A stretch of DNA of 23,049 nucleotides from Clostridiales bacterium (GTDB taxonomy: Bacteria > Bacillota > Clostridia > Oscillospirales > CAG-272): the NCBI GenBank assembly GCA_003523225.1, contig DPGK01000026.1, positions 380-23,428 of the forward strand, written 5' to 3'. A model generated the notes under the pieces. It saw only the letters and a list, made by a program, of their open reading frames with translations. It searched no databases and was not told the DNA's origin. Positions 1 through 18,640 of this stretch are shown here, in pieces. The position numbers and the translations under genes were made by a program. Each line of letters starts with the position of its first letter. Position 1 is the stretch's first letter.

Positions 1-160
1 ACACAAGGGAGGCTAACGTATCCAGCCGTATTTGCGGTTGTGGGGCAAATTTGCAAATATCGGAAGTTTCAGTGTGATTACAGACACGCCAGAAACATAC
101 CCATATTGAGCTGTGCAAGCAAACGGCTTTGCCGGCGGTTATGACTACTTTCATTTTATA

Positions 161-1369
161 TCATTTTTCCGGTGTGCGTATATTTCTGTCCGGTTCAAGT
201 GAGCACTGGATATCCACCGTACCGTCCGACTTTACAAACGGAGATGCGGTATCGTTTTCGTACTTTACCCTGTCCTCCTCACGCCGGAAGTCCGGGATCT
301 CGTACATTCTGCCGTTTTCAAGGCAGCTCCGCCATCCGAGTATCCCGCACGACGCCATCGCCGTGGCGCGATAAACGTCAAAGAACGGTTCGCGCTTGCC
401 AAGCAGCACCTCGACAAATTCGCGGCAGACATAATAATCCCCGCCCGAATGACCGCACTTTGCCGCCTTATCTCCGTCATACGGGAAGGTCGGCGCATAT
501 ACGGAATCGCGCGGACTGCCCGCCGGTGTGTTGTATGAGTTGAAGCCGACACGTATGCGGCTGCCGTCAAATCTCACAGTCTCAACATCCCCCTCGGTGC
601 ATACGATCCTGTACCAGCTTCCGTGCGCGCCTACCGCGCCCCAGCCGCAGAAGGAAAAGACCGAGCCGTCCGACATTTTGCAGGTCATCTGAGCATACGG
701 GTCATTCCGCGCATATGTTCCGACCCCGACCTCCGGACGCTCCACAGCCTGAGCCGATATGTAAAGCGGCATGGCCTCCGTTGCATACATAATAGGTCCG
801 ACCGAATGAGTATTGTAGTACGTCGGCGGAATGTGGTTGCGCCAGTGTTCGGGAGTCGGCGCGTATCTCAGTCTCTCCGCCGTTGACATCGGGTGAATAT
901 ACTCGCCCTCACCGTGCACCGCTCTGCCCAGTATCCCGCTCTGATACACTCTACGCATTTCCTGACACGGCGCGGAATAGGGATAGTTTTCTATAAGCAT
1001 ATATTTTGCCCCGAGCTTTTCAGCCGCCTCGACCGCGCGCACAAGCTCAACGCCCTCCGCCATTGTGCAGTTGGAGGCGCACTCAGACAGCACCGATATC
1101 CCCTTTGCAAGCAGGCGTATTGCGTATCTCTGATGCTCACAGTAGTAGTTTGCCAGCACGCAGGCGTCCATGTCGTGCAAAATGAATTTCTCAAAATCCT
1201 CGTATACTCCCGCGCCTTCGGAAATGTACGGCTTGATCTTTTCAAGCTGCTTGGGGTCGCGGTCACACACCGCAACTATATCGGCTCCCGCCAGCTTGAG
1301 ACACGCCGCCAGCATGGTTCCCCGCCAGCAGCCGAACACACCTATTTTCGGTCTTCTTTCCTCGCTCAT
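161..1369 (-). CDS. Gfo/Idh/MocA-family protein, GH109-like
   Basis: This 402-residue protein has an N-terminal Rossmann NAD(P)-binding fold (GVFGCWRGT, residues 10-18; acidic end of beta-2 at VAVCDRD, 32-38) followed by the alpha/beta C-terminal domain of the Gfo/Idh/MocA family. The usual catalytic EKP motif is replaced by E96-C97-A98, so the lysine of ordinary sugar dehydrogenases is missing. Other motifs recall the NAD-dependent GH109 glycosidases: ENYPY (127-131), NTHSVGP (186-192), GHSGGDYY (306-313) and a C-terminal EIPDF (357-361). This likeness is from memory of the family, not an alignment. A cytoplasmic NAD-dependent glycosidase or sugar oxidoreductase is inferred. The ATG at 1369 is chosen because AAAGGA precedes it and because the longer ATG start at 1450 would place the consensus promoter (1422-1450) inside the gene. 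It lies downstream of the transporter operon but has its own promoter. Confidence 0.85.
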   Translation of the reverse strand: MSEERRPKIGVFGCWRGTMLAACLKLAGADIVAVCDRDPKQLEKIKPYISEGAGVYEDFEKFILHDMDACVLANYYCEHQRYAIRLLAKGISVLSECASNCTMAEGVELVRAVEAAEKLGAKYMLIENYPYSAPCQEMRRVYQSGILGRAVHGEGEYIHPMSTAERLRYAPTPEHWRNHIPPTYYNTHSVGPIMYATEAMPLYISAQAVERPEVGVGTYARNDPYAQMTCKMSDGSVFSFCGWGAVGAHGSWYRIVCTEGDVETVRFDGSRIRVGFNSYNTPAGSPRDSVYAPTFPYDGDKAAKCGHSGGDYYVCREFVEVLLGKREPFFDVYRATAMASCGILGWRSCLENGRMYEIPDFRREEDRVKYENDTASPFVKSDGTVDIQCSLEPDRNIRTPEK

Positions 1370-1421
1370 ATCCGCTGATTCCTTTCGTTTTATCCCGCGC
1401 ACGCAGGTTTTTTGTATTGAA

Positions 1422-1450
1422 ATTATAATTACTGCCTGTTCATTTGTCAA
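1422..1450 (-). promoter_or_regulatory. Consensus sigma-A promoter of the Gfo/Idh/MocA gene
   Basis: On the minus strand TTGACA (1445-1450) and TATAAT (1422-1427) are separated by exactly 17 bp, matching the sigma-A consensus at all twelve positions. Transcription would start near 1415, leaving a leader of about 45 nt before the ATG at 1369. It indicates that this gene can be expressed independently of the upstream transporter operon. Confidence 0.85.
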
Positions 1451-1555
1451 CAGTATTTTTGATCGTTTTAATCACTTTTACTGTTAAGTTTTCGCGAACC
1501 GTTTTTGTGCCTGTGCTAATACTATAAACGCGCGACTCGCCTTATATAGGTACGG

Positions 1556-1800
1556 TCAAAGACAGTTCGATAGCCGCTTTTTATTTGATGAAGCAGGCGC
1601 AAAGAAAAAGCTTCGCAAAAAGAAAGCCTCATGAGGGGATCTCGCTGCCTGCGGGCGGCGACAAGGGCTATGCGCCCTCAAGCCTTTTGAAAAAGGCTTG
1701 AGAAACCTTTTACTTTTACCTGCCCGCGCAGGCTTTACGACAGCCAATGGGGGCTGCCGCAAGCGGCAACCCCCATATGCGGTATAAATGCCGCAGGTGA
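1556..1800. repeat. Structured intergenic element, repeat-like, non-coding
   Basis: The gap between the last permease gene and the Gfo/Idh/MocA promoter (1451-1819) contains no convincing gene. An open frame at 1556-1762 on the minus strand has a low-complexity translation and no good ribosome binding site. The segment holds a perfect 12-bp inverted repeat (1677-1702, CTCAAGCCTTTT and its complement around GA), another hairpin at 1749-1774 and GC-rich blocks between them. Its layout recalls short intergenic elements that recur in Oscillospiraceae-type genomes. That is recollection, and only one copy is in this window. Confidence 0.4.
1749..1794 (-). terminator. Tandem hairpins after the transporter operon
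   Basis: Just after the stop codon at 1820, the minus-strand transcript meets two hairpins: GCGG/CCGC around an 8-nt loop (1779-1794), then a stronger GGGGG..TGCCGC / GCGGCA..CCCCC hairpin (1749-1774) with one internal mismatch. No clear T-tract follows, so these could be a weak terminator or a 3'-end stabiliser of the long operon mRNA. Confidence 0.4.
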
Positions 1801-1819
1801 AATATTTGTTTTTGCGGTA

Positions 1820-2944
1820 TCAGTCCGCGGTAAGTCCCGAACGCTCGATGCCCTGTACCAGGAAGCGCTGGCAGAACAGGTACATGATAACAAGCGGGAA
1901 GATTATCACAAGACCGCAGGTGTTGCGTATCGCGGAGTAATACAAGTTCTGTCCGGCGTAGTTCGTCTCAAGCACCCTCGGAATTTCAACCATATCCGGC
2001 ATAAGCCTGATCTTTGTGTTCGTAAAGAACAGATTGGTATAGAAGTCGTCAGTCCACTGCCATGAGAATGCAAACAGGAAAACTGTGATCATCATCGGAA
2101 TAGACAGCGGGAGAATGATCTGAAGGAAAGTGCGGAAAACGCCCGAACCGTCGATGTAGGCTGATTCTTCAAGCTCGTCAGGCACGCCGCGGAAGAACTG
2201 ACGCATCATGAAGATGTAAAGTCCGTTCTTGAATCCGAGACCTGTCAGAGACATGATGATAAGCGGCCAGAAGGAGTTATTGAGGTTCATAGCACCGCTT
2301 TCAATGATACTCTTGATGAAGGCGTTCTTGGAGGTCTCCGGGAAGATGTTGATCATCGAAAGAATGTTGTTCAGCCATTCAATGTTGCCTACAGTAGCGT
2401 GACCGGAAAGCAGATGGGTAATACCCAGCACGTCAAAGAAGCGGAACTTCATGAAGAGCGAAAGCTGAAGGGTCGGGTGCGGAACTATCATCGTCAGCAT
2501 GACGGCGAGGAACACGTACTTTGAGCCTCTGAATTTGAATTTTGCAAATCCGTAACCGATGAGGGTACATATAAATGTCTGGATAAGTGCCGTAGAAGCT
2601 GAAAGCAGCAGTGTGTTTCCGAATGCTTCCCAATAATCGTTGGCAAGTATCGCCCGGTAAGTGTCAAGCGTGAAGTGCATGGGTATAAGCCTTACTCTTA
2701 CGTCGACAAAATCCTCAGGCGCCATGACCGAACCGGAAATCATTGAGAAGAAGGGGTAAAGCACGATGTAGGAAATACCGATAAGAAGGACAAGACGGAA
2801 AATATACCATACGACCTTTCCGACGAAAGCACCGTTGATGAATTTTGCCTTAAGTCTGTCCTTAAGCGGAGTTCTTTCAAACTCTACTTTTATCTTGTTC
2901 TTGGATTCCTTTTTGATACGCGGAGATTCCTGTACGTTATTCAT
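1820..2944 (-). CDS. Carbohydrate ABC transporter permease, MalG-like (second pair)
   Basis: This 374-residue membrane protein has a MalG/CUT1 layout: a basic cytoplasmic N-terminus (1-40), a first membrane helix near 44-68, further hydrophobic helices, and the cytoplasmic EAA loop at 256-283 (ELEESAYIDGSGVF, ending in LPLSIP), which docks onto the ATPase. Family members are usually about 280 residues. The extra length is an insertion of roughly 50 residues near 175-222, after the QLSLFMKF segment, plus a long N-terminal tail. The ATG at 2944 follows a strong GAGGAGGT site, and the preceding permease gene ends 16 nt upstream. It is the last gene of the transporter operon and should pair with the permease at 2961-3950. 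Substrate unknown. Confidence 0.9.
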   Translation of the reverse strand: MNNVQESPRIKKESKNKIKVEFERTPLKDRLKAKFINGAFVGKVVWYIFRLVLLIGISYIVLYPFFSMISGSVMAPEDFVDVRVRLIPMHFTLDTYRAILANDYWEAFGNTLLLSASTALIQTFICTLIGYGFAKFKFRGSKYVFLAVMLTMIVPHPTLQLSLFMKFRFFDVLGITHLLSGHATVGNIEWLNNILSMINIFPETSKNAFIKSIIESGAMNLNNSFWPLIIMSLTGLGFKNGLYIFMMRQFFRGVPDELEESAYIDGSGVFRTFLQIILPLSIPMMITVFLFAFSWQWTDDFYTNLFFTNTKIRLMPDMVEIPRVLETNYAGQNLYYSAIRNTCGLVIIFPLVIMYLFCQRFLVQGIERSGLTAD

Positions 2945-2960
2945 TTGTACTTACCTCCTC

Positions 2961-3950
2961 TCAGTCTTTCTTCTGGTAGAAGACGACACCGGAGAATATC
3001 GCGGCGACAACTCCTACTATCAGCATAACAATGAGGAAGTATATCCACGACATTGCGGAGCTGATAACGTTACCGTTTGTTTGTGTGTACTTTGCTGCAA
3101 TGAACTTCATAACCGTGTTGGAGTCGGTCGTGAACGAGTCTATGATCGTATAAACAGCGTTGACAAGTATCATAGGGCTTATCATCGGGAAAGTTATCTT
3201 CCAGAAGGTCTCCCAGCTTGAGGCACCGTCTATCTGGCAGGACTCATAAATTGCAGGGGAAATGGACTGAAGTCCGGCAAGGAATATAAGCATCTGAACG
3301 CCGGAACGGTTTACGATATCGTAGATGTTGTTGATTGCAGATACAACATAATCGACTATCTCGGTACCGACCTTCATATTTGAGAACAGATACTCAATGT
3401 CTATTGCCGAAACCAGCTCAGCCGTGGTGCTCTGTCCGGAGTTGCTGATACTGTCTGTCTCCTCTCCGTATTCAGCCATGATATTCTGCGCGTTTATTGA
3501 CTCCATAAGACCGGTTGAAAGGATAACGGGTATGAAGAATATCGCACGGAATACCGCACGTCCCGCCATCTTCTGGTTCAGAAGGACCGCCATGAAGAGC
3601 GAGAAAATGATGATCGCGGGAATATCGAACAGAAGCTCCTGAATACCAACAAGCAGGGTCTGCGCGAACTTGGGGTCGTTGATAAGTGCCTCTTCATAGT
3701 TCTGCCAGCCTACGAACTCTGTAACAAGTCCGCCACCTGCCTGTACGCTGATGCGCTGGAAGCTGTACTTGATAGAGTCGAAAATCACGGGCAGATAGAT
3801 CAGTACAAAGCCGATCACGAAGGGCAGGACAAACAGCCAGCCCGACCGCGCCTTGCGCCTGTCAAGAGAGGCAATGCGGCGTTTCTTCGGCTGCTTGGCG
3901 CCGGCGCCCTTGGTGCTAACAGTATTTTTAAGTTGAATATCGTTTGTCAC
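2961..3950 (-). CDS. Sugar ABC transporter permease, MalF/UgpA-like (second pair)
   Basis: This 329-residue integral membrane protein has the MalF/UgpA fold typical of carbohydrate importers. A basic N-terminus (1-36) precedes the first helix (38-58), and the EAA loop is at 235-258 (YESCQIDGASSWETFW..FP). About 60 polar residues near 150-215, with no membrane segment, lie where this family normally has a shorter external loop. The start is GTG at 3950, supported by GAGGTG 6 nt upstream. The DUF5696 gene stops 16 nt before it and the MalG-like partner starts 16 nt after its end, so the genes are clearly co-transcribed. No ATPase is encoded nearby. Confidence 0.9.
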   Translation of the reverse strand: MTNDIQLKNTVSTKGAGAKQPKKRRIASLDRRKARSGWLFVLPFVIGFVLIYLPVIFDSIKYSFQRISVQAGGGLVTEFVGWQNYEEALINDPKFAQTLLVGIQELLFDIPAIIIFSLFMAVLLNQKMAGRAVFRAIFFIPVILSTGLMESINAQNIMAEYGEETDSISNSGQSTTAELVSAIDIEYLFSNMKVGTEIVDYVVSAINNIYDIVNRSGVQMLIFLAGLQSISPAIYESCQIDGASSWETFWKITFPMISPMILVNAVYTIIDSFTTDSNTVMKFIAAKYTQTNGNVISSAMSWIYFLIVMLIVGVVAAIFSGVVFYQKKD

Positions 3951-3966
3951 TTAAAGCACCTCTCTT

Positions 3967-6900
3967 TCAATCATTTGCAGTGAAGTAAACGCTGTTACCG
4001 TCGGGCGTTACCTTTACGCCGCCGTTGCGGGCGATCGTGTAGGTGGTGCCGTCAAGCACTACGGTCACATCAAAGAAGTTGTAGTTAAGAATGAAGAATA
4101 TTCCATTCTCGTATGTTACCTTGACGATGTTGCCGCCGTCATCGGTATACTTGGTGTACTTGTACTCGCCGTCATCCTCTTCGTCGGAAGTATCGGGAGT
4201 GGTATCCGGAGTTGTGGGATCGGTTGAGATCGCCGGCAGCTCGGGGATCTTCTCAACGATCTCGGAGGCGATATCATAGCACTGGGCAACGATATCACGT
4301 GCAAGCAGGAACAGCTTATCTGCTTCTGCAGCCAGCTTTGCGGACTCGTCCTTGGCATACTGAACGTCTGCCTTGAACCCGGCGGAATACTGTGCATCGG
4401 GAAGGAGAACCTCTGCCGCATATGCCGCGTTGTCGGCTGCGGTGAGAGCGGAACGTCTCTGGTTCTCGATCTTCTTGATGATACTGTTGATGGTCGTTAC
4501 CTGACCGCTTGCTTTGCGCTTTGCAGTGCTCTGAGCAGTGGTGGCGTTGCGGTAAGCCGTGGCAGCGTCGGTCTTTGCCTTCTTCGCCGCGTCATCAGCC
4601 TGCTTGGCGTTGTTGTACTCGGCATCGGCGGCGAGAAATACGGCGTTATCAGCGTCATACTGAGCCTTGCCGGCACTTGCTTCTACCGCCGCCTTGGCAT
4701 TATTGAGAGCTGCAAGTCTGGTGTCAACAGTTGTCTTCTGGGTTGCGTAGCTGTAAACCACAGATGCGATCTTGGTGTCCTTGTTCTTGAGCGCGGTGTA
4801 AGCGTCGTTGCTGGCGGTAGCCGCGTCAGTGTACTTCTGGTTAGCTGCTGCGTAAGCATCGGGATTGGCGTTCTTGTCGATAGCGTCTCTTGCTTCCTTG
4901 GCGGCTGTCATTGCAGCGTATGCGGTCTCAAAGGCTGCCTTCAGGCTGAGAGCCTCGGCGTCAGCAGTGGCAAGAGCCTCGTCGAGCGCGGTCTTGCGGG
5001 TCACAAGTGTCGCCTCAGCCGCATCATAGCTGGTCTGAGCAGAGTTCATTGTTGCAACGAGCTTGGCGTGAGCTGCATTTTCGGAAGAATCAAGCGCCGC
5101 TTTTGCAGCAGTGCGCAGTGCAGTCTTTTCGGCAAGCACCTTGGCGGTTTCCGCAGCGTCGTTTGTAGTAGTTTCGACCAGAGCTGCATAGGTATCGATA
5201 TCGGCAGTTGCCTGCTTGTAGTCGGCGACATACTGCTTGATAGTATCAAGCTGGTCGAAAAGTCCGCGGTCTGTACGTCCGGTGGTGGGATCGATCACCG
5301 CACCCGTCCCGTAGTAGCTGTTGCTGATGGTTGTAAGCGCGTTCTGTGCGGTAGTTACGGAATCGATACGTCCGGAGAGTGCTTTCTTGCGAAGCTCCTC
5401 GGCAAGCTTTGCTTCCGCAGCCTCTTTTTCAGCCTGCGCGGCTTCCTCAAGAGCCTTGAGATCGGCTTCGATCTCATCTGCATCGGGAACACGTTCACCG
5501 ATCAGGAATTCGTGACCGACGATCTGAAGGAGCTGCAGGTCACGTGTCAGCTCGTTGAGCTTGGTGTAATACTTTACAATGTCGTCCTTGAGAATGTCAT
5601 AACGCACCGAGTAGTACTGGCTGAGGTTTCTGTCTTCCTTCAGCTTTTCATAGTTCTGATAGCAGAGCGTGAAGTTGATGCTTGCTCCGTTTTCGATCGC
5701 CTTCAGGAAGCTGTAACCGATGTTACCGTCCATATTGATAGGCGAACCGGACATCTGCACATAGCTGTGAAGCACAACACCGATGAAAGGCACTGCATTG
5801 CTGGATTTGTTGAAACGGCTGGAATCCAGCGGTACATTCATAATGTAGTCAATGTACTTCCAGGTGTACGCGTTTGCTCCGTCTGTCATGACTTCATCGA
5901 AGTCCTCGGACATGGTCTTGAACAGATCTACCGTGAACTCCTCGGAGTCTGCGCGGTGGTAAGGCTCATCCTCATCGAAGTCGGAGTTGAGGTCCGTTCC
6001 GAGAGTTGCGACCGAAATACCGCTCTTGCAGCCTTCCGGATAATACTTGAGCAGGTTCTCTGAGAGCTTGTTGTAGAAATGAGTGAAATACGCGGGAGAT
6101 ATTGCAAGCTCGTAGCGACCTACATAAGTCTGCATTGTGGCGCTGTAATATCTCTTTGAGGTGTACTGGTCGTTTATGGTTCTGACGGCGTGCTTCTTGA
6201 GAGACAGTCCGTCAAACAGCGTATCGGTTTCACCGCTTGCGTAAACAAAGTCGAAGTCCGGGAAGATGCCGAAGCCTTTTTCGTTGGCGTACTTGACAAG
6301 CTCCTCGTATCCGTCTTTGCCGCCGACCGATTTTTCCCACTTAAGATTGTACGGCACCTGGCTGTACATACCGCCGTTTGCAAAACCGGTAAGTCTGAAT
6401 TTGATGTTTGTGATCCCGCTTTCCGCAAGATCGTCGTATATAGTCTTTATATCCTCGAAAGTGGTAAGCGGGGTCATTACATTGACCGGAACTGAAAGGA
6501 TCTTCTCAACGGTCTCAATAGTTCCGAATGTCTGCAGGTAAAGCGGGATATCCTCGTTTACATCCGCCTCGGTGAGCTTTGTCAGGTCGCCCTTGGATAC
6601 AAGATAATCGCGGTAAGCCTGAGCCATACCCATCCATGTGGGGGAATAATAGTCGGTGATTCCCTTTTCCTCGGCGATCTTCTCGTCGGTCAGCATGATG
6701 TAACGGATCTTGTAGTTTCCGACGTATTTACGGGAGGAAACGACCGTCCACTGTGCGTTTGAACCGACTGAGATGATGTTTGCAAGGTTCATGTTGTCAC
6801 GCGGTCTGGGATAGAACTGCATTTCAACATAGTTGTACTTGTGGACGCCGCTTGTGTGGTTGGTCGAGAGAGTGGCAAGAGAGTCGCCTTCCTCGATTAT

Positions 6901-8415
6901 AGCCACAAATCCGCGATCCTCTTTGTAAACGGATTCCACATCCTCGTACACGGCGGGAGTGACAACTTTTCCGTCTGCGTCATATTCCGCCTCGCTGACA
7001 AGCTGCTTGTCTGTGCGTGTCTCGTGGTAGTTGGACACGATACCGAAAACGGGATATCTGATGACCTCGGTGTGACCGCCCGTTATCTCGTGGTAAGCAT
7101 AGTCCTGACCGTAAACCTTACCGCTGACGATAGTTGAGCCTTTGTTTACCAGCTCCTCGTGACGGAACAGTGTTCCCGAACCGTCGGGGAAGAAGTTGTA
7201 GCCTGTAAAGGTATCGGTCTTGTCGTCAAGGTAGTAGTTTGCGCCTGCGCCCATGAAGGGGAGAACGCTGATGTAGGTCAGCTGATAAAGTGACTCGGTG
7301 AAACGCAGACCGTTTACCGGAACTCTTACGGACATGCCCCATTCGTCAAGCGTGTACTCAAGCGCGAGCTTGAACAGAGCCGGAGCCTTGTCGCCTTCGC
7401 TGTCATATTCGGCGTCCGCATGGTCCTTATCAAGCTCCTCGTAGGTGTACTGAGGAACATAGGTCTTGATAAGAGTTTCTATCTGCATTGTCTCAGTGAG
7501 GGTGGCGTCGGGAGTGAAAACGTAAATGGCGTGCTCCTTGCAGATCGGATAGAGCAGTATCATTTCGTTTTTCAGCGTCTCGGTCTCAGCCTCGTTGATG
7601 TCATAGCGGTCATAGTGCGCTCTGAGCTTGTTGAACATGAACCAGCTGCTGTTACCGGATTCGGTGATGATCTTGGTGTACATCGACTCATGGTAATAGT
7701 CGCGCCAGTTTACTTCTCTGACCAGTATCGGCTCGGCAAGCTCCATTCCGGTTTCCTTGGAGTAGTACTTACCGTCCCGTTCGTAGCAGAGGTTTTCATT
7801 GATAACGCCCTTTTCCGCAAGCTCGCGGGACTCGGCGTTTATTTCCGCAGCGTAAACGTCAAGGATGTTTTCCTCAAATCTTTCCTTGAGTATGCGCTTG
7901 GGAACCAGCATACGGTTTTCTTCACGTCCGATCGTGTATTCGACGCGGATACCGTTTTTGATATTTTTGAACTTGATCTGTCCGCGGGAGGCAGCCTCCT
8001 CAAAGCTGTACATGAACTTTTCGGTATCGTTGTCCTTGTACTTGACAACGATCTGAGAAAGCAGCTGCTTTTTGACGGAATCTGAACCCGATGTCGCAAC
8101 ATCGTAGGGGTTGGAGAACAGGATCTGTCCGGACGCCGTGTTCTTTGTGGCAACCTCACCGGTAAAGGTGTCTACCCAAAGCTGGTATCCGTTCTTTTCA
8201 TACATAAGATCCATCTCCGCGAGCTTTTCCTCAGCGGATTCGAATTTAGTTGTGAGATATTGTGCAAGTGTTGCCTCGTAATCTATCTCATCGGTTTCCT
8301 TCTTGGTCTGTTCGTCGATTTCGTAGACGGGGGTAATCTTTTTTGCGGATATACCTATCGTCAGCGTACCGAGCAGTAACACAACAGTCAAGAGTGCCGC
8401 TAAAATTCTTTTCAT
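3967..8415 (-). CDS. Secreted DUF5696-type protein with long Ala-rich coiled coil
   Basis: This 1482-residue protein begins with a signal peptide (MKRILAALLTVVLLLGTLTIGISA). An N-terminal region of about 570 residues looks rich in beta structure. Residues about 600-970 look like a glycoside-hydrolase-type (beta/alpha) barrel: a repeated strand pattern with FRLTGFANGGMYS (673-685), FPDFDF (718-723), LGTDLNSDFDED (805-816) and PFIGVVLHSYVQMSGSPIN (876-894). Acidic residues D720, D722, D808 and D811 are catalytic candidates only. Residues about 980-1390 form an Ala/Lys/Asp-rich helical coiled coil, then a Pro/Thr linker (PTTPDTTPDT), an acidic patch and a small C-terminal beta domain. The DUF5696 call is from recalled motifs and the recurrent neighbourhood with permeases and YIP1 proteins. 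The ATG at 8415 has GGAGGAG upstream. The enzymatic role is inferred. Confidence 0.8.
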   Translation of the reverse strand: MKRILAALLTVVLLLGTLTIGISAKKITPVYEIDEQTKKETDEIDYEATLAQYLTTKFESAEEKLAEMDLMYEKNGYQLWVDTFTGEVATKNTASGQILFSNPYDVATSGSDSVKKQLLSQIVVKYKDNDTEKFMYSFEEAASRGQIKFKNIKNGIRVEYTIGREENRMLVPKRILKERFEENILDVYAAEINAESRELAEKGVINENLCYERDGKYYSKETGMELAEPILVREVNWRDYYHESMYTKIITESGNSSWFMFNKLRAHYDRYDINEAETETLKNEMILLYPICKEHAIYVFTPDATLTETMQIETLIKTYVPQYTYEELDKDHADAEYDSEGDKAPALFKLALEYTLDEWGMSVRVPVNGLRFTESLYQLTYISVLPFMGAGANYYLDDKTDTFTGYNFFPDGSGTLFRHEELVNKGSTIVSGKVYGQDYAYHEITGGHTEVIRYPVFGIVSNYHETRTDKQLVSEAEYDADGKVVTPAVYEDVESVYKEDRGFVAIIEEGDSLATLSTNHTSGVHKYNYVEMQFYPRPRDNMNLANIISVGSNAQWTVVSSRKYVGNYKIRYIMLTDEKIAEEKGITDYYSPTWMGMAQAYRDYLVSKGDLTKLTEADVNEDIPLYLQTFGTIETVEKILSVPVNVMTPLTTFEDIKTIYDDLAESGITNIKFRLTGFANGGMYSQVPYNLKWEKSVGGKDGYEELVKYANEKGFGIFPDFDFVYASGETDTLFDGLSLKKHAVRTINDQYTSKRYYSATMQTYVGRYELAISPAYFTHFYNKLSENLLKYYPEGCKSGISVATLGTDLNSDFDEDEPYHRADSEEFTVDLFKTMSEDFDEVMTDGANAYTWKYIDYIMNVPLDSSRFNKSSNAVPFIGVVLHSYVQMSGSPINMDGNIGYSFLKAIENGASINFTLCYQNYEKLKEDRNLSQYYSVRYDILKDDIVKYYTKLNELTRDLQLLQIVGHEFLIGERVPDADEIEADLKALEEAAQAEKEAAEAKLAEELRKKALSGRIDSVTTAQNALTTISNSYYGTGAVIDPTTGRTDRGLFDQLDTIKQYVADYKQATADIDTYAALVETTTNDAAETAKVLAEKTALRTAAKAALDSSENAAHAKLVATMNSAQTSYDAAEATLVTRKTALDEALATADAEALSLKAAFETAYAAMTAAKEARDAIDKNANPDAYAAANQKYTDAATASNDAYTALKNKDTKIASVVYSYATQKTTVDTRLAALNNAKAAVEASAGKAQYDADNAVFLAADAEYNNAKQADDAAKKAKTDAATAYRNATTAQSTAKRKASGQVTTINSIIKKIENQRRSALTAADNAAYAAEVLLPDAQYSAGFKADVQYAKDESAKLAAEADKLFLLARDIVAQCYDIASEIVEKIPELPAISTDPTTPDTTPDTSDEEDDGEYKYTKYTDDGGNIVKVTYENGIFFILNYNFFDVTVVLDGTTYTIARNGGVKVTPDGNSVYFTAND

Positions 8416-8440
8416 ATTAATCTTAATCTCCTCCTGTTTG

Positions 8441-10588
8441 TTATAGACGGTAGTTGATCTCGATGATGATATTGGAAACAAAGCTGATTATCTTTCCGAG
8501 CAGCGTGGTAAAGAGAATACCTATGAACATGATGAACGCCATACCAACTATGGTGCCCAGAGAGGTAATGAAGTTTTTACCCAGCGAATAATCGTGAGTG
8601 ACCATCATTCCGCAGAAGATGAGCATTCCCGTCCAGATAAACGCGATCGTTCCGATGAAGCTGACGATGTCAAGCTCGGCAACGGTTGCAAAGTTGGAAT
8701 AGATAGTGGCGGGAATCACAAGAAGTATCAGCGGCAGCAGAGAGTAAGAGCAGGCAATGAATATATCCTTGAAGCTGCCCTCGCCGTCGAACAGTGTTGT
8801 AAGACACCAGTTTGCCGTGACCCAGAGCATAAGGGGCACGATAACGCTTATCGCCTGTGACACTATCGTGGTGTAGCTTCCGCGCGGGTTGACAAGATAA
8901 CCCGAGCCGATCTCCTGATAGAAGAAGGTAAGCACGGTCAGCAGGACGTACACAAGCGACGCACGCAGCGAACCGCGTTTTTCGTGCTTGAGGTCCCAGA
9001 AACCGTCAAAGGGGTGGAAGATGAGGTGGAAGCCAAATATAAGCTCCTCCCAGAAGGTTCTCTTGCCTCCTGCTGTGGAAACGCGCTTATTCAGCTTTCC
9101 GGCGTATCTGAAGAAGAGTACGACCGCTGCGATGATAACGCCTGCGATTACGGGAACAAGCAGAACGTACTTGGCGATCCATGCCTTACGGATCTCCTTG
9201 TAGGCGTCCGACCAGTTGTCCTTGTCGTATGCTGCCTCAAAATACTTGAGAGCGTTTTCGTAGTCACCGTTACGTGAGTAAGCCTGACCTATACCGATGT
9301 AAGCGGTGTCAAAGTTGGAGTTTCTCTTGAGTATCTCGGTCCAGTCGTCGATGGCACGGTCAAACTGACGCTCGTTCTGGTTTTTCAGAGCGTTTATCAG
9401 AATATCGCCGTACTCTGTGCGCTGGAAGACTGTAAAGTTCTTCTGTGTTTTGTCAAGCACCAGCATTGTTCCGTCGCTCTTGTAAACAACAGCGGCGATC
9501 TTTTGCATATTACCGAGCTGGTTACCCGTGTCGCCGAATGCAAACAGCAGATTACCGTTGAAGTCGTAGGTAAATACTCTGCTTCGCTTTTCGTCGATTA
9601 TCGTCCATGTCTTCTCAGGTCCGACGGCAACGTCGACTATCTTTGAAGGACCGGTGGTCGAACCGTCAGTGCTTGAGGTACCGACCTGAACTTCACCGGA
9701 AGGCGGATAAAAACCGTTACGCTTCATAACCTCGGTACCCGAGTTATTGAGCAGCTTTACCGGCGCGTAGTCACCGCTTTTGGACTTGTTCTTTATCGCG
9801 TTCTGCTGAGCCTTCGCATCAAGCGAGGAGGTCGTGACATAGATCAGCTTGTCGCGTATCGCGATATTATTATATTCGGTAGGAATATAAGACTCGGTCT
9901 GCGCGCGCGCGGCGTCGGACATTATCTTTCTCCACACCTTATCCCAGGCGGAGATCGAAACCTTCTGAGCACCGATGATGCTTATGAAATCACCGGTATC
10001 AGACATTACGATGATACCCTGATAGGTGGTGGAGGATACAACGTACAGACGGTTGTAATCGTCAACGGCAAGAGCCACCGGCTTGTAGACGGAATCGTCT
10101 TCAAGGATCTCGTCCTCAGGCTCGGGGATTATCGCAAGGAAATTACCGTCGCGGTCAAACGTGACTATACGGTTGGCATCGGTATCGCACACAAATATGC
10201 GATCCTTGGTCACATACACGCCCGAGGGGTTGGTGAACTTATCGGGAACACCCTGCTCGTTGGTGAAGTCCGAAATAATGAACTTCAGCTTATAGTATCT
10301 GTCGCATACAACTATGCGGTTGTTTGCTGCATCGGCGATGTAGATGTTATCCTCATCATCGACGAACAGATCGCGCGGGTCGTCCAGCGTCTTTTTGGAA
10401 TCAAGTCCTATATAGGCGGAGTCGACCGTCATCACCGGAGTGTATGCATCCGGTGAGTAAAGCGGAAATCCGGAGGAGGAGTAGGTGTAGGTCTGATATG
10501 ACTTGACCGCTCCCGCGGGAACCGCAAACAGTGTTATCAGTGCGACAAGGAGAGCCGCAGCCGATATGTATCGTCTCTTTTTATTCAT
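8441..10588 (-). CDS. Secreted NHL-repeat / TPR / YIP1-domain fusion protein
   Basis: This 715-residue protein has a signal peptide (1-27, ending in PAGA). NHL-type beta-propeller blades follow (69-104, 117-153, 168-205 and 316-388) with the recurring pattern DxxxxIYIADxxNNRI. A TPR-like helical stretch (397-465, FDTAYIGIGQAYSRNGDYENALKYF) leads to a membrane helix (473-493). The C-terminal YIP1-like multi-helix membrane domain spans about 515-715 (FHPFDGFWDLKHEKRGSLR). The propeller and TPR would lie outside the cell and the YIP1 part in the membrane. NHL propellers usually bind proteins, RNA or glycans, and the partner here is unknown. The ATG at 10588 has AGGAGG 7 nt upstream, overlapping the stop of the preceding permease. 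The DUF5696 gene starts 25 nt after its end. A scaffold or sensor role for the transport complex is inferred. Confidence 0.8.
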   Translation of the reverse strand: MNKKRRYISAAALLVALITLFAVPAGAVKSYQTYTYSSSGFPLYSPDAYTPVMTVDSAYIGLDSKKTLDDPRDLFVDDEDNIYIADAANNRIVVCDRYYKLKFIISDFTNEQGVPDKFTNPSGVYVTKDRIFVCDTDANRIVTFDRDGNFLAIIPEPEDEILEDDSVYKPVALAVDDYNRLYVVSSTTYQGIIVMSDTGDFISIIGAQKVSISAWDKVWRKIMSDAARAQTESYIPTEYNNIAIRDKLIYVTTSSLDAKAQQNAIKNKSKSGDYAPVKLLNNSGTEVMKRNGFYPPSGEVQVGTSSTDGSTTGPSKIVDVAVGPEKTWTIIDEKRSRVFTYDFNGNLLFAFGDTGNQLGNMQKIAAVVYKSDGTMLVLDKTQKNFTVFQRTEYGDILINALKNQNERQFDRAIDDWTEILKRNSNFDTAYIGIGQAYSRNGDYENALKYFEAAYDKDNWSDAYKEIRKAWIAKYVLLVPVIAGVIIAAVVLFFRYAGKLNKRVSTAGGKRTFWEELIFGFHLIFHPFDGFWDLKHEKRGSLRASLVYVLLTVLTFFYQEIGSGYLVNPRGSYTTIVSQAISVIVPLMLWVTANWCLTTLFDGEGSFKDIFIACSYSLLPLILLVIPATIYSNFATVAELDIVSFIGTIAFIWTGMLIFCGMMVTHDYSLGKNFITSLGTIVGMAFIMFIGILFTTLLGKIISFVSNIIIEINYRL

Positions 10589-10599
10589 TGACTGCCTCC

Positions 10600-11472
10600 T
10601 TAGTCTTTCATACCGCTCGAACCCATCGTTTCAATGATGTTCGACTGTGTAATAATGAATACCATGATAGGTACAAGCATCATAACTACCGTTGCCGCGG
10701 CGCTGGCGCCTGCACGCTTGATACCGCCGGCGGTTATCTGACCGATAGCGTAGTTAAAGGACTTGAGCTGTTCGGAGTGGATATAGACCGATGCACCGGC
10801 GTTCCACAGATCCTGGAAGCAGTAAACTATAAGCGTCAGCCATGCGGGCTTGACCATAGGCATTGCGATCAGCCAGAAGGAGCGGAACTCGCCCGCGCCG
10901 TCAAGACGCGCCGATTCAAGCACCGAGTCGTTGACGTGGGTATCCATGAACTGCTTCATGAGGTAGAGTCCCAGTGTAGCTCCCCATGCGGGAACTATCT
11001 TTGCCCAGTAGGTATCAATCATACCGAGGATACTCATCGTCAGGAAGTTCGCAACAGCAGTAACTGTTTTGTGGAACATCAGCGAGGTCCTTACCGACTT
11101 GAACATCATCTTGCCGCCGGGGAATTTGATCTTTGCCATGGCGTATGCTGCAAGGGATGCAAAGAACAGGTTTCCGAGCGTACCGGCAACAGACACGAAT
11201 ACCGTGTTGAATATGTAGCGGGAGAAGGGGACCCAGGAGTCGTTCATCAGTGTGAACAGATCCTTGTAGTTTGAAAACGTCGGTCTGATAACGTAAAATC
11301 TCGGCGGGAACATCCACAGCTCATCAAGAGGCTTGAAGGACTGTATAACGACGTAATACATCGGGAGGAACATGAAGATACCGAGCAGCGTGAGCATCAC
11401 GGTGATGCCGAAGTCGCCTCCGACCGAACGGTTAAGAACGACTTTATGTTTTCTTGTTCTCAGTTTTGCCAT
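10600..11472 (-). CDS. Carbohydrate ABC transporter permease, MalG-like (first pair)
   Basis: This 290-residue MalG/CUT1-type permease is of normal length for the family. A basic N-terminus (1-14) is followed by a membrane helix at about 22-45 and the typical FNT..VSVAGTLGNLFFASLAAYAMAK segment (88-114, given here in abbreviated form). The EAA loop is at 184-207 (VLESARLDGAGEFRSFW..MP). It starts at ATG 11472, one nucleotide after the stop of the partner permease, with AAGGTGGG inside the end of that gene, so translation of the pair is probably coupled. It forms a heterodimeric channel with the product of 11474-12439. Confidence 0.92.
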   Translation of the reverse strand: MAKLRTRKHKVVLNRSVGGDFGITVMLTLLGIFMFLPMYYVVIQSFKPLDELWMFPPRFYVIRPTFSNYKDLFTLMNDSWVPFSRYIFNTVFVSVAGTLGNLFFASLAAYAMAKIKFPGGKMMFKSVRTSLMFHKTVTAVANFLTMSILGMIDTYWAKIVPAWGATLGLYLMKQFMDTHVNDSVLESARLDGAGEFRSFWLIAMPMVKPAWLTLIVYCFQDLWNAGASVYIHSEQLKSFNYAIGQITAGGIKRAGASAAATVVMMLVPIMVFIITQSNIIETMGSSGMKD

Positions 11473-11473
11473 C

Positions 11474-12439
11474 TTACTGTCCCACCTTTGAAATCATTTT
11501 CTTGACCAACATGTTGGCTCCTATCATTATAAGGAAGAGCACCACGGCTATGGCTGACGAATATCCCGTTTCAAAACGGGCGCCGCCGTAGTCGTTAAGG
11601 TGATGCACGATGGTCCACGCACAATAGTCAACCGATGGGTTGCCGCAAAGTGCGTCAACAACGCCGCCAAAGCCGAAGGACTGGGTTATCGACATGATAG
11701 CACCGAACATCAGCTGCGGCTTCATGGACGGAAGGGTTACATACCAAAGCTCCTGCCATCTGTTGCGGACGCCGTCAACTGCCGCCGCTTCGTAAAGCGA
11801 GTGGTCAACGCCCTGAAGACCGGCTATGAAGGACAGGAACGATGTACCAAGGGACGTCCAGAGGGCGACCACGATACAAAGCGGCATTACATATTTTTTG
11901 TCCTCAAAGAACTGAATTGCTTCGGTAGTAATGCCAAGGTCAAGCAGAACGGCGTTCGCCCAGCCGTATGAGTCTCCGGAGAACAGTGTACCCCAGATAA
12001 GATAGACCTGACCGGAAATCGAGGGAGCGTAGAATACCAGTGTTACCACCGCACGGATCTTGGGCGGCAGCTCGTTGATGAACCACGCGACGAACAGCGA
12101 CATAAGGTATGACGCCGGTCCGACGATCACAGCGAATATAAATGTGTTCTTGCAGGCGATAAGGAAGATATCGTCGTCAAGGAAAAGGCGGATATAGTTA
12201 TCGAAGAATACGAAGTTGGGCATCTGCAGGATGTTGAAGTCGGTAAAACTGACAACTATCGAAAGCAGAACCGGTACAACGGTGAACAGAGTGAAGACTA
12301 TCATGAAGGGGGCAACCATGACGTAAGCCGCCCAGTTGCGCTTCATTTCCTTCCATGTCCACGCCGCACGGCTCATATCTTTTCTGGCGACAGCCTTTTT
12401 CGGCGCTTCCTTTGCAGCCTGCGCTTTTTGCAGTGACAT
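11474..12439 (-). CDS. Sugar ABC transporter permease, MalF/UgpA-like (first pair)
   Basis: This 321-residue integral membrane protein has a basic cytoplasmic N-terminus (1-35), a first helix at about 38-62 (YVMVAPFMIVFTLFTVVPVL), a conserved VSFTDFNI segment and the EAA loop at 216-239 (YEAAAVDGVRNRWQELW..LP). The glycine, alanine and aspartate of the EAA motif are intact, so it should contact an ATPase. The ATG at 12439 has AAGGAG about 11 nt upstream. It starts 43 nt after the binding-protein gene and is followed without a gap by the MalG-like partner, the usual order for a CUT1 importer. Confidence 0.92.
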   Translation of the reverse strand: MSLQKAQAAKEAPKKAVARKDMSRAAWTWKEMKRNWAAYVMVAPFMIVFTLFTVVPVLLSIVVSFTDFNILQMPNFVFFDNYIRLFLDDDIFLIACKNTFIFAVIVGPASYLMSLFVAWFINELPPKIRAVVTLVFYAPSISGQVYLIWGTLFSGDSYGWANAVLLDLGITTEAIQFFEDKKYVMPLCIVVALWTSLGTSFLSFIAGLQGVDHSLYEAAAVDGVRNRWQELWYVTLPSMKPQLMFGAIMSITQSFGFGGVVDALCGNPSVDYCAWTIVHHLNDYGGARFETGYSSAIAVVLFLIMIGANMLVKKMISKVGQ

Positions 12440-12482
12440 GTGCTGTTTTCTCCTTACTTAGAATTTGTTTTGCGCGACGGTC

Positions 12483-15400
12483 TTAATAAATCGTCGTTCC
12501 GGAAGTGGCGGGGTAGGAGGACTGATAAGACTTCAGCGCGTTGGCGCATTCAGAAACCTTCTTGGCGATATCGCCGAAGAGGTTTGCATCAGCAGCGCCG
12601 AGAGCTTCACCGGCAGCACGGAGTGCGTCGATGTACTCATCCTCGCAGTAGGTTGAGTAGGTGGGGATATCCTCCATCGCCTTCTTCAGCGCGTCGATCT
12701 GCGCAGTGTAAGCGGAAGCGGAAGAACCGAGAGCATCAAGCGCCTCGTATATCTGATCGCGACGCAGCGATGCAAGCGTCTGACCTACCTCAAGAGTGGG
12801 AAGTCCGAACTCCGATCTCTTACGGGTAATTTCCTTGTTGATCGTCGTAATGTAGCTGAGCAGCTCGCTTACGGCGTCGGCGTTATCGTTGTAAACAGCA
12901 AGGAAAGCAAACTTGGTGTAACGACCGATAATGTATGCTCCGGGATAGTTGGGAATGGAAGCGAGGTTTGTGAACTGAGCGTTGAGGTTTTCAAACTCCT
13001 CACGTGTCCAGGGCATTGATTCAAGCGCCTGAACGTTCGCGGTGGCGTATTTCGCAGAGTCGCCCATGATAGCAACCATTTCGTTTGAATAGTCTATCTG
13101 GCACTGTGCGCCGACATGCCACTTCATGAATTCCCATGCATCCTCTTTCTTGTCGCAGCTGCTTATCATAACGATCGCGTTTACAGAGGAAACCGAAACG
13201 TTGTTGATAGTGCCGTCTTCACGCTCGAAGCCGGGCAGAGGCAGGAACTGCCACTTACCGCGAAGCTCGGTCGCAAATACGATCAGCTGGTTGTAGGTGC
13301 CGTTGTAGGATGCGATACCTATCGGCATCTCACCGGTACGGAAGCGGTTTGCGAAGTCGTATTTATAGGGGAAGGAGTACATCTTGAACAGGTTGCACAT
13401 CTGCTCAAAGGAGTCAAGAGCCAGGTTGGAGTCAAGATTGATCCTCATACCTTCATCGGCAAAGAGCGTGCCGCCCATCTGGTAAAGGAAGATCTTGTAG
13501 TCATTGCTCATAGCAATGGTCATGTTGTTCTGCTGCAGCTTGATAACGGCGGAAAGAACATCTTCCCAGGTCTTAGGGATCTCAATGTCAAGCTCGGCAA
13601 GAATGTCGGTGCGCAGGAACATCATCGGGAAGTTCTGCTCCTCGGGCAGACCGTAGCAGTGGTTCACGCCGTCGGCGTCGGCAAGCTCAAGAACGAACAT
13701 TGCCGCCTCGGTGAACTGCTGATTCGGGTCGCCGGGTGTGGTGTTAGTGACCTCCTCGAAGCCCTTGTAGGTGCTTATGTCCTCAAGCGCTCCGCGGATA
13801 GCGTAGTTGATAACGCTGTCGTCGCCGAGACCGATGTAAACATCAGGTCCCATGCCTGCCAGAATTGAAGGAAGCAGCGTGCCTCCGGCGACCAGCTTAA
13901 GGTCTACGGAAATTCCGGTAGCGGGAGTGAAGTCGTTGTTGATAAGGTTACGGATGACCTGAGACTGGTCACGTCCCTTTGCAAGCCAGACCTCGACCGA
14001 GCCTTCGGAGCTGACCTCGGTAGCGCCCATGCGGTTGTAGTTACGCAGGAAGCTCTGAATGAAGCTCGAGAACTCGTGTGCGAATGACTGGAAGAAGTTT
14101 GCCTTTGCAACCGGTCTTTCAGCGTCAACGCTCTGGATGTAGATGACGTCCAGCTTCAGCGGCTGGGTCTTTGCGTCGTTGAGCCATGTACCAAGCGAAC
14201 CGATACGGCTCTTCAGCTCGGTAAGGTTTCTTGCTATCTCATCCTCGGGGTCGCTTCCCATACGGGCAAGCAGCCACGCGGCGCGCTCAAGCGTTGCAAC
14301 ATTGGAGCTCTTGATGCCGGCGAGCGACGTCAGCTCGGATGCCACGCTGTAAAGGTTGCGGGATTCAAGAATGATATGAGCCACGGTTTCGGGCATGACG
14401 TCAAGGAAGTTGTAGTCACGGTTGGCGTCAGGATCGGCTCCGGTCAGCTTCATTATAGAGAGGTACGCATCGTTGATAATGGCGAGCGAAGTGTTGACCT
14501 GACGGACAATGTCGCCCATAGTGCCGAGCGAGACCTCAAGCTCGATGGTGTATTCAATACCGGCGGCAAAGTACATCTCGATGTCAGTGTAGAGCATTTC
14601 TTCCTTGCCCTTTGCATTGACGCCGTAATTGCCGAAGCGCAGAGCCTCTGTCTGCCAATCGGTGCTGTAATTGAATCTCAGCTCATTTGCCTCCTTGAAG
14701 GGAACGCCGTTGTAATAGCCGAGATCGCCCTCCTTGAGTCCCTCGCCGCTGTAAACGGAAAGGATACGGGAGGAATACATACCGTCGTTGATGTTCTGCA
14801 TAAAGCGGGTGATTATCGAATACATACCGCTGCTGTTCACGGTAAAGGTATATCTTACCCACTGACCGGGCGTCTGCCACTTGTCACCGCCGATGGTGTT
14901 AAGCACAGTGCGCGATGTATCGGAGGGGCTGCTTACCGCAGAGGCGCGGTCCTCGATAGGATATATCGTGGAGCTGGAGGTCCTGTGGGGGATCTCAGCT
15001 TCCAGCTTTACAACATCCGTACCCTTGGGCTGACCCTCGTACTGCTTGAGGTATTCCTCATAAGTAGGAAGATCCTCAACCGGGAAAAGGGTGATGGTCT
15101 TTATAGCCATAGGCTCGTTGACCGCTTCAAGGGTAATGGTGTTCTCGCCCTCATTGAATATAAATTCGAAGGGTTCGGTATAGAAGCCGTCAACGTCACG
15201 CAGCTCATAGGTCCTCCATTCGGGATCCTGCTTCATCGTTGCGCGCAGCTCGTTTTTGTCGATATCAAGCTTGAAGGGGCGGGTAGCGCCGCTCTTGATA
15301 TCCTCGATGCTCATACCGTTTATGGTTGCTTCATCATAAACCGTAGACCATACCTTTGAGAAGGTTATGTAGTATGCCTCGGAGAAAGGTACCTTATTAT

Positions 15401-15839
15401 TAATAAGGAAGGTACGCTGTATCGACGTCGATTTTCCTTCGACGGGATAATACTCAATAGCGATACCGTACTTTGCAGTCTTGGGAACATTGAAACGATA
15501 TACTACCGAACCGCTGTCGGGAGTATAAAGCGACTCAACACCGTCGTATGTCTCCTTGCTGACCGCAGCGTCAGTTTCGGTCTTGTCGTAGTCAAGACCA
15601 TTGATAACTATTTCGCTTCCGGCACGCGGATACAACGTTTCATCCGAATGTTTTTCGGTGTATTCGTCATAACTTGAGGCGTTCAGCAGCCTCTTGACGT
15701 CGTCAAGCGTTTTATCGGTTACCGAAGCACCGCTTGATGCACCGTCCGCGGCAAACGCCGCAGTAGTCAGGCTGCCAAGAACGAACAGCATTGACAGCAC
15801 AAGTGCCATCAGTTTTTTGAGTTTCGTTCTCATCTTCAT
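12483..15839 (-). CDS. Very large multidomain extracellular solute-binding protein
   Basis: This 1118-residue secreted protein has a signal peptide (1-30) ending in AFA|A. There is no lipobox cysteine, unlike most Gram-positive binding proteins. Residues about 75-260 and 275-470 look like two beta-sandwich (galactose-binding/CBM-like) modules, with RYTFTVNSSGMYSIITRF at 329-346 typical of such folds. A helical region of about 130 residues follows. The binding-protein domain proper starts near 613 (VEVWLAKGRDQSQVI) and includes PDVYIG, PKTWEDVL and EDAWEFMKW. Usual CUT1 binding proteins are 400-550 residues. It is first in the operon and should deliver a glycan to the adjacent permeases. The ATG at 15839 is preferred because AGGAGGG lies 12 nt upstream. 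An internal ATG at 15833 is a weaker alternative. Confidence 0.88.
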   Translation of the reverse strand: MKMRTKLKKLMALVLSMLFVLGSLTTAAFAADGASSGASVTDKTLDDVKRLLNASSYDEYTEKHSDETLYPRAGSEIVINGLDYDKTETDAAVSKETYDGVESLYTPDSGSVVYRFNVPKTAKYGIAIEYYPVEGKSTSIQRTFLINNKVPFSEAYYITFSKVWSTVYDEATINGMSIEDIKSGATRPFKLDIDKNELRATMKQDPEWRTYELRDVDGFYTEPFEFIFNEGENTITLEAVNEPMAIKTITLFPVEDLPTYEEYLKQYEGQPKGTDVVKLEAEIPHRTSSSTIYPIEDRASAVSSPSDTSRTVLNTIGGDKWQTPGQWVRYTFTVNSSGMYSIITRFMQNINDGMYSSRILSVYSGEGLKEGDLGYYNGVPFKEANELRFNYSTDWQTEALRFGNYGVNAKGKEEMLYTDIEMYFAAGIEYTIELEVSLGTMGDIVRQVNTSLAIINDAYLSIMKLTGADPDANRDYNFLDVMPETVAHIILESRNLYSVASELTSLAGIKSSNVATLERAAWLLARMGSDPEDEIARNLTELKSRIGSLGTWLNDAKTQPLKLDVIYIQSVDAERPVAKANFFQSFAHEFSSFIQSFLRNYNRMGATEVSSEGSVEVWLAKGRDQSQVIRNLINNDFTPATGISVDLKLVAGGTLLPSILAGMGPDVYIGLGDDSVINYAIRGALEDISTYKGFEEVTNTTPGDPNQQFTEAAMFVLELADADGVNHCYGLPEEQNFPMMFLRTDILAELDIEIPKTWEDVLSAVIKLQQNNMTIAMSNDYKIFLYQMGGTLFADEGMRINLDSNLALDSFEQMCNLFKMYSFPYKYDFANRFRTGEMPIGIASYNGTYNQLIVFATELRGKWQFLPLPGFEREDGTINNVSVSSVNAIVMISSCDKKEDAWEFMKWHVGAQCQIDYSNEMVAIMGDSAKYATANVQALESMPWTREEFENLNAQFTNLASIPNYPGAYIIGRYTKFAFLAVYNDNADAVSELLSYITTINKEITRKRSEFGLPTLEVGQTLASLRRDQIYEALDALGSSASAYTAQIDALKKAMEDIPTYSTYCEDEYIDALRAAGEALGAADANLFGDIAKKVSECANALKSYQSSYPATSGTTIY

Positions 15840-16420
15840 CTTCTGTGGTTTCCCTCCTGATTGTTTTTCCTGTGCCGGGGGAGCCGAACACGGGTAATTT
15901 GTTCCGCGTTTTGTTTTTATTCTGCCCGATACCGCCGCCCTACAGGGGCAAAACGGCATATCCGCATATCAGGCAACGGATTAAGACCTTTGCGGCGGCG
16001 GCGGAAATAAGCGTAAGCCGCGCGCCGGGTGTCGCAAAGCGCTTTTCAGCGCAGTGCGGAAAGCCGAGCGGTACAGACCGCAGCGACCGCAAAAGCCTCA
16101 AACCGTGACACATTCAGATAGCAGATAAATAAGGCAAGCCGGCAAAAACACAGGTCTTTGCCGAAATGCACGGGCAGTTTTCCGGAACCGCAACGCGGAA
16201 AAGCAGTCCGGAAGCCGCTTTCCGTCGCCGCAAGACCGTCCTGACCGCCGAAAACGGCGGCAAACGGCAAAGCAACGCCGGAAAGAATAAAAGAATAAGT
16301 TCAGACAACGTCCGGATGTCTCAGATATCTTTACGCGGCGGTACCTGCCCGCCGCGTAAAGATACGGTTTTGTTTGCTTTCGCATGACATCTTGGACATA
16401 TGAAATCTGCCTTAATTTGT
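15840..16420 (-). other. Long GC-rich leader of the transporter operon
   Basis: From the promoter at 16427-16455 to the binding-protein ATG, the transcript would carry about 580 nt of untranslated leader. Open frames here (for example 16098-16385 and 16046-16270, minus) give Arg/Cys/Phe-rich translations without good ribosome binding sites and are rejected as genes. Hairpins include 16326-16364 (16 bp) and 16245-16260 (CCGCCG/CGGCGG around AAAA). I do not recognise a known riboswitch. No closer promoter was found between 15840 and 16100. Confidence 0.45.
16326..16364. promoter_or_regulatory. 16-bp perfect hairpin in the operon leader
   Basis: The arms 16326-16341 and 16349-16364 (TATCTTTACGCGGCGG and its complement) pair perfectly around a 7-nt loop. 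It lies about 60 nt downstream of the predicted start of the minus-strand operon transcript. No T-tract follows on the minus strand, so it is not a plain terminator in that direction. On the plus strand it is followed by GGTTTTGTTTGCTTT and could stop antisense transcription. Confidence 0.6.
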
Positions 16421-16426
16421 AGTGTT

Positions 16427-16455
16427 ATAATATCATAAGCTCAAAAAAGTGTCAA
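16427..16455 (-). promoter_or_regulatory. Sigma-A promoter of the transporter operon
   Basis: TTGACA (16450-16455) and TATTAT (16427-16432) lie on the minus strand with a 17-bp spacer, only one base away from consensus. It is the best promoter upstream of the large binding-protein gene and would start transcription near 16420. Confidence 0.75.
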
Positions 16456-18522: not shown

Positions 18523-18601
18523 TGTGATTTTCTCCTTTTGATAATATTTATGCCGCACAAGCGGTGATTCTCGCACAGTGGAAAACCGTCTTTTTATAAA
18601 G

Positions 18602-18632: not shown

Positions 18633-18640
18633 GGGAAAAA

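Follow-up and report, generated by a model that had tools for sequence, protein, structure and literature searches.

A probable glycan-capture ABC import unit of seven genes in gut Clostridia, with a GH129-fold protein predicted to be catalytically inert

The window, by which we mean the whole 23,049-nucleotide (nt) stretch of a Clostridiales bacterium contig (DPGK01000026.1) that was analysed, carries seven closely packed genes that we think probably form one glycan-capture ATP-binding cassette (ABC) import unit with outer parts that do not cut. All seven are on the minus strand and are read from 15839 to 1820 in the order giant solute-binding protein (SBP), PermA, PermB, NHL-TPR-YIP1 protein, DUF5696 protein, PermC, PermD. 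The genes, and the parts of them on which the argument turns, are the following (aa, amino acids; CBM, carbohydrate-binding module; GH, glycoside hydrolase).

12483..15839, minus strand: giant SBP, 1118 aa; Pfam SBP_bac_8/SBP_bac_1; N-terminal hydrophobic signal-like stretch, lipobox Cys absent
14529..15611, minus strand: two beta-sandwich modules, SBP residues 77-252 and 276-437, from the predicted model; probably CBM35/CBM6-related
12804..14012, minus strand: predicted oligosaccharide-binding SBP domain, residues 610-1012, from a fold search of the model
11474..12439, minus strand: PermA, UgpA-like; EAA-loop Gly in 100% (rounded) of 70 aligned
10600..11472, minus strand: PermB, UgpE/MalG-like; EAA-loop Gly in 100% (rounded) of 69 aligned
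8441..10588, minus strand: fusion of NHL propeller, TPR, transmembrane helix and YIP1, 715 aa, by Pfam
3967..8415, minus strand: DUF5696 protein (PF18952), 1482 aa, by Pfam; predicted pseudo-glycosidase of GH129 fold, carrying an Ala-rich, helix-like insert and, at the C terminus, a beta domain
6004..6006, minus strand: T804 codon, aligned with the catalytic Asp of GH129 (NagBb D435)
5881..5883, minus strand: D845 codon, aligned with the conserved Glu of GH129 (NagBb E478)
2961..3950, minus strand: PermC; EAA-loop Gly in 99% of 79 aligned
1820..2944, minus strand: PermD; EAA-loop Gly in 100% (rounded) of 80 aligned

In transcription order the intergenic gaps are 43, 1, 11, 25, 16 and 16 nt, and purine-rich stretches resembling ribosome-binding sites precede the starts of the genes. 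A preliminary description of this DNA had drawn a seven-gene unit from 1820 to 15839 with gaps of 1 to 43 nt, which is exact in the window, and its naming of a giant binding protein, two permease pairs, an NHL-TPR-YIP1 protein and a DUF5696 protein agrees with Pfam. The matches are SBP_bac_8/SBP_bac_1 in the SBP, NHL (2.9e-9), TPR_1 and Yip1 (5.4e-15) in the fused protein, and DUF5696 (8.1e-125); each of the four permeases matches BPD_transp_1, PermB slightly under the curated cut-off (23.3 vs 26.4 bits). An Rfam scan of the window gave no match above gathering scores.

The gene order is conserved. We compared a near set of loci, which is the window's clade and consists of the best 80 of 285 confirmed loci found by scanning a DUF5696 alignment over genome contigs, with an intermediate set (n=21) and a wide set (n=40). 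By record title, all 80 near loci come from Clostridia, Clostridiales, Oscillospiraceae or Ruminococcus bins, and herbivore guts prevail. The same seven-gene order is found in 70 of the 80, with median gaps of 40, 1, 14, 21, 16 and 14 nt; in the remaining ten the contig ends within the unit, and one of these (L014, 3.6 kb) has parts of DUF5696 only. The figure of 70 counts genes cut by a contig end as present, and it becomes 66/80 with rebuilt gene models, which missed some PermD and one NHL. With the rebuilt models, which cover 39 of the 40 wide loci, DUF5696 is immediately preceded by the NHL gene in 78/80 near, 19/21 intermediate and 38/39 wide loci and immediately followed by a permease (PermC or PermD) in 77/80, 19/21 and 38/39. 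The giant SBP is present in 73/80, 18/21 and 30/39, respectively. One of the 21 intermediate loci (L091) is a free-standing relative without unit neighbours. The earlier expectation that DUF5696 and YIP1 genes recur beside sugar permeases thus holds in Clostridia and in the phylum, and the opposite pattern, with these genes mostly away from permeases, was not seen.

The two anonymous families also occur in the same genomes, a check that the preliminary description had proposed. Our phylum sample was 398 genomes, an even sampling of the phylum of one wide-set genome (G066) that we take to be Bacillota, the phylum of Clostridia; in each genome only the best few candidates were scored. DUF5696 is above its cut-off in 39/398, so that about one tenth of the sampled genomes carry it, some in several copies, and it reaches E <= 1e-100 in 37. 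The identical 37 genomes carry DUF5696 and NHL(-YIP1), each at E <= 1e-100, assuming that both searches covered one and the same set of 398, which the genome labels they share indicate. Outside those 37, one genome (G321) has a partial NHL match (2.6e-62) and six have generic propeller matches (1e-21 to 1e-23). Among 59 relatives of another genome (G003), compared by eye, a large DUF5696 (E <= 1e-70) is present in 43, of which all but one (42) also have the NHL protein at E <= 1e-40; the exception is G070, whose DUF5696 sits at a contig end. Operon-type DUF5696 is present in one copy per genome in 30/30 genomes searched, and a further search of 21 genomes with a DUF5696 alignment (A1) yielded little.

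The NHL-TPR-YIP1 protein has hydrophobic stretches at residues 5-32 and 468-500 and four more between 572 and 710. NHL and YIP1 are a single gene in 76/80 near loci, the other four being cut, and are two genes in 8/20 intermediate and 17/40 wide loci (25/60 together), several of them from G066. Fusion of neighbouring genes is classical evidence of joint function. Here it would argue for contact between those two parts only, and for no other contact of the complex.

A fold search with a predicted model of DUF5696 residues 1-1012 found the GH129 fold, with GH97 likewise among the matches. A profile of 40 DUF5696 sequences (A2) matched PDB entries 5opq (5.1e-12) and 5wzn (3.4e-8). We used A2, most members of which have no insert, after discarding a PDB search with profile A1, in which the insert drew unrelated helical proteins. 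Direct comparison of DUF5696 with 12 free-standing relatives by hhalign gave 99.9% (E 2.8e-37). The Pfam GH129 model PF11308 had no match to the window's protein at E <= 1, nor did NCBIfam match it or the giant SBP at E <= 0.01. The N terminus of the protein has a hydrophobic stretch. Some 400 Ala-rich, helix-like residues separate the barrel from the C-terminal domain; in relatives this insert varies in length or is absent, and it is the only, indirect sign we have of the coiled coil that had been proposed.

We take E478 of NagBb, a GH129 enzyme, to be its second catalytic acid. The catalytic Asp of GH129 is NagBb D435, according to PMC5698469. At the place of this Asp, Thr or Ser is found in 79/79 scored near loci and in 82/82 sequences of A1, and Asp or Glu in 0/79 (one near locus with a gap at both catalytic places was set aside). 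The second place has D in 26, E in 25 and another residue in 28 of the 79; the window has D845. DUF5696 of the window's clade is most likely a pseudo-glycosidase, predicted to be catalytically inert.

The free-standing relatives have Asp in 12/12 and Glu in 12/12 at the two places. They come from 17 weak-match loci that have no core gene of the unit within the stretches fetched; 12 of these form the alignment (A3), from which L096 was omitted although it is above the DUF5696 cut-off. L095 (alpha-amylase) and L094 (DUF6259) are not DUF5696-like and were rejected, and L085 and L097 have no Pfam family. The free-standing GH129-related proteins at L081-L093 are scored as DUF5696 by Pfam, and this family likely mixes enzymes predicted to be active with operon pseudo-enzymes.

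In the predicted architecture of the giant SBP, two CBM35/CBM6-related beta-sandwiches come before a domain for oligosaccharide binding. A profile of 20 N-terminal SBP pieces (A7) matched two PDB entries, 5x7g, a cycloisomaltooligosaccharide glucanotransferase (7.4e-10), and 2vzp, an exo-beta-D-glucosaminidase module that we take to be CBM35 (0.0012). Pfam found CBM_35 in 6, Golvesin_C in 11 and CBM_6 in 2 of the 20 pieces. The window's own piece matched Golvesin_C alone, under the curated cut-off (0.00056), and as a single sequence had no PDB match below E 0.2. In the fold search with the whole SBP model, matches to the SBP domain left no room for any to the N-terminal modules.

The EAA-loop glycine is kept in all four permease families (99-100%), so coupling to an ATPase is conceivable for both pairs. 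PermD has an insert of ~55-60 aa ahead of its EAA loop (231 residues span 172 profile positions), and the permeases have NCBIfam matches far under cut-offs only. By Pfam there is no ATPase gene in the seven-gene unit; a MalK-type OB domain (OB_MalK) is above cut-off elsewhere in 27/30 related genomes.

Based on these observations, we propose that the giant SBP would catch carbohydrate outside the membrane with its two CBM35/CBM6-like modules and hand an oligosaccharide to its own solute-binding domain. DUF5696, with a GH129 fold that has lost the catalytic Asp, would add a second carbohydrate-binding surface rather than cutting, and the NHL propeller, with YIP1 as its membrane anchor, would be the likely docking platform for the outer parts. 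The oligosaccharide would be imported via PermA/PermB, and possibly PermC/PermD, with a MalK-type ATPase, perhaps shared, that is encoded elsewhere. PermC/PermD would be a second importer, without its own SBP in the near clade, that either draws on the giant SBP too or is supplied by DUF5696. The presence of large extracellular carbohydrate-binding proteins in the unit, as claimed in the preliminary description, is supported, and these may form a physical complex at the importer, as it had also suggested.

Several observations weigh against this proposal. The near loci are kin among gut Clostridia and are not independent of each other, and several wide loci come from a single genome. Absence of a lipobox in the giant SBP (pattern present in 3/114) is less telling than it seems, as a lipobox is also frequently missing from the small SBPs of these loci (11/45 with the pattern). 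Acids occupy both catalytic places in 11/40 wider DUF5696 proteins, in 5 of them exactly as Asp and Glu; the predicted inertness is a trait of the window's clade and not of DUF5696 as a whole. Finally, in the near clade glycosidases are absent by Pfam from the representatives of 22 flank clusters that recur in at least 3 loci (5/22 without a family). Those with a Pfam name are mostly housekeeping families that point to no substrate: SUF, NifU, AlaRS, aminotransferase, methyltransferases, ROK, SipL, ABC exporter, carboxypeptidases, Gfo/Idh, acyltransferase, sigma factor, SpoIIGA and citrate synthase. The earlier idea that the unit processes a polymer does not fit these flanks, nor the loss, in this clade, of the catalytic Asp from the one enzyme-like protein of the unit. 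In the window itself, no intact polysaccharide-degrading enzyme was found by Pfam in twelve genes, one of which, a 511-aa ORF (open reading frame), has no family.

In wider genomes the unit is found within catabolic loci. Among 87 scanned flank ORFs (picked from 126), 26 are SBP_bac_1 and the glycosidase families are varied; among 30 hand-picked for single scans, 12 are glycosidases. G066, a 1.8-Mb genome, has six divergent copies of the unit (L100, L101, L103-L106), several adjoining different glycosidase families, and these could offer natural material for testing substrate specificity. Four copies are beside GH78-like, GH127, GH2, and GH31 plus GH106 genes, the fifth adjoins a fused nucleotidyltransferase/GHMP-kinase gene on the opposite strand, and three ORFs adjoining the sixth have no Pfam family. 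Other wider units are near GH30, GH3, GH43, GH2, GH35 and GH26. Two wider loci (L177:545-3445 and L185:15071-18163) have large HEAT-repeat proteins (~1000 aa) encoded downstream of the unit.

DUF5696 could have a more direct part in transport, as a glycosidase turned substrate-binding subunit that feeds PermC/PermD, with NHL-YIP1 as scaffold and the giant SBP feeding PermA/PermB. It is a candidate receptor because it directly precedes PermC or PermD at the frequencies given above, and because a small SBP directly follows PermD in 15/39 wide loci but in only 1/64 near loci (1/19 intermediate). In the wide set, however, the small SBP is found in 4/11 acid-keeping and 11/29 other loci, so the two traits are not linked, and we consider this arrangement rather unlikely. 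The same small SBPs would fit an arrangement of two independent importers, one made of SBP-PermA-PermB and another in which PermC-PermD has a small SBP of its own and is merely assisted by NHL-YIP1 and DUF5696; several wide loci have NHL-DUF5696-PermC-PermD without the giant SBP or ahead of it. Given how rare the small SBP is in the near and intermediate sets, and that near loci keep the seven genes together, we find two separate importers quite improbable.

It is also unlikely, in our view, that DUF5696 of the window's clade has remained a glycosidase, one that works through relocated catalytic residues or by inversion and trims the glycan before import. The clade does keep acids at D812 (78/82) and also at D735, D814 and D816, and the wider proteins with acids at both places would fit such an enzyme. 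Its fold match GH97 includes both inverting and retaining members, according to PMC2670981. On the other side, the second catalytic place is also lost, with neither Asp nor Glu, in the 28 near loci noted above, and of the window's barrel acids only D812 and E908 are acidic in at least 75% of 40 wide members. A propeller, a pseudo-enzyme and a membrane domain would together resemble a receptor, so that NHL-YIP1/DUF5696 might be a sensor that reports bound glycan and controls the operon, and AraC (3/87) and LacI (2/87) ORFs do occur in wide flanks. Yet the seven genes have no kinase, anti-sigma or DNA-binding parts by Pfam, and only two families in the 22 near flank clusters look regulatory, one a ROK protein and the other a sigma factor found with the SpoIIGA-like peptidase cluster; a sensor with no part in transport seems to us highly improbable. 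We therefore retain a capture and import unit with non-cutting outer parts as the preferred reading.

Outside the coding regions, we noted these features.

16427..16455, minus strand: candidate sigma-70 promoter (TTGACA, 17 nt, tgTATTAT), 11/12 consensus matches, ~590 nt before the first gene
16326..16364, no strand: 16-bp near-perfect inverted repeat in the leader; 16300-16390 folds at -39.8 kcal/mol, z -5.5
1735..1800, minus strand: strong hairpin past the last stop codon; -36.7 kcal/mol, z -4.7, 0/200 shuffles as good

These signals are consensus matches or folds and no proof of use. The inverted repeat is possibly an operator, attenuator or hairpin, and the hairpin probably marks the 3' end of the unit. 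Over both strands of 1-18700 there are 33 promoter-like sites against 18.3 expected (sd 4.4) and 19 terminator-like sites against 18.3, so such sites are uninformative within the unit. Downstream, a Gfo/Idh/MocA-family oxidoreductase gene (161 to about 1369, minus strand) has a 12/12 promoter match (TTGACA-17-TATAAT at 1450-1422) and is probably transcribed apart from the unit. Just upstream, the 511-aa ORF (17041-18576, minus strand) is a predicted lipoprotein with a Cys after a hydrophobic stretch and no Pfam family at E <= 1. At higher positions are two FAD_oxidored (PF12831) ORFs (18641-21263, minus strand), whose frames overlap by ~220 nt and one of which has a HEAT-repeat match just below cut-off, and a tRNA-Leu (gag; 22807-22891, minus strand) upstream of an iron-containing alcohol dehydrogenase gene.

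In the literature we searched, whose coverage leaves out most subscription papers and all bioRxiv preprints, neither "DUF5696" nor "PF18952" was found, and searches around YIP1, NHL, SBP/permease, GH and pseudoenzyme returned nothing that we recognised as this unit. As far as we could see, the importer is known in kind and the conserved apparatus of NHL-YIP1, pseudo-GH129 and CBM-bearing SBP is apparently undescribed. DUF5696 would gain a fold and an ancestry, as a former glycosidase that has probably become a non-catalytic component of an ABC transport locus. Together with NHL-YIP1 it would also gain a role in glycan import that both families share and that can be tested.

DUF5696 has fold and profile homology in common with GH129 (NagBb of Bifidobacterium bifidum and the GH129-like ZgGH129/DagB of Zobellia), but in the window it has Thr for the catalytic Asp, an N-terminal hydrophobic stretch, a 400-aa insert and an ABC operon setting. 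Like the carbohydrate ABC importers of the MalEFG, UgpBAE and MsmEFG type, a class we take to be named CUT1, the unit has an SBP with an oligosaccharide SBP fold, two permeases with EAA loops and an ATPase encoded elsewhere; what sets it apart is the size of its SBP (1118 aa) and the CBM-like modules of that protein, together with NHL-YIP1, a probable pseudo-glycosidase and a second pair of permeases. It shares glycan ABC transport in gut Firmicutes, and in wider copies adjacent glycosidases, with the Gram-positive polysaccharide utilization loci of Roseburia/E. rectale as described in PMC5320581. It differs from that description in that the window's clade has no linked intact glycosidase by Pfam and a single operon-type copy per genome (30/30). 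In its proposed function the unit also resembles another system, although its seven genes contain no SusC/SusD-like Pfam domain and it is an ABC importer in a Clostridia-type genome. The surface glycan-binding proteins of the Bacteroidetes Sus system are non-catalytic and hold glycan at the transporter, and the unit, with non-catalytic surface proteins proposed to act at its own transporter, may be their Gram-positive counterpart.
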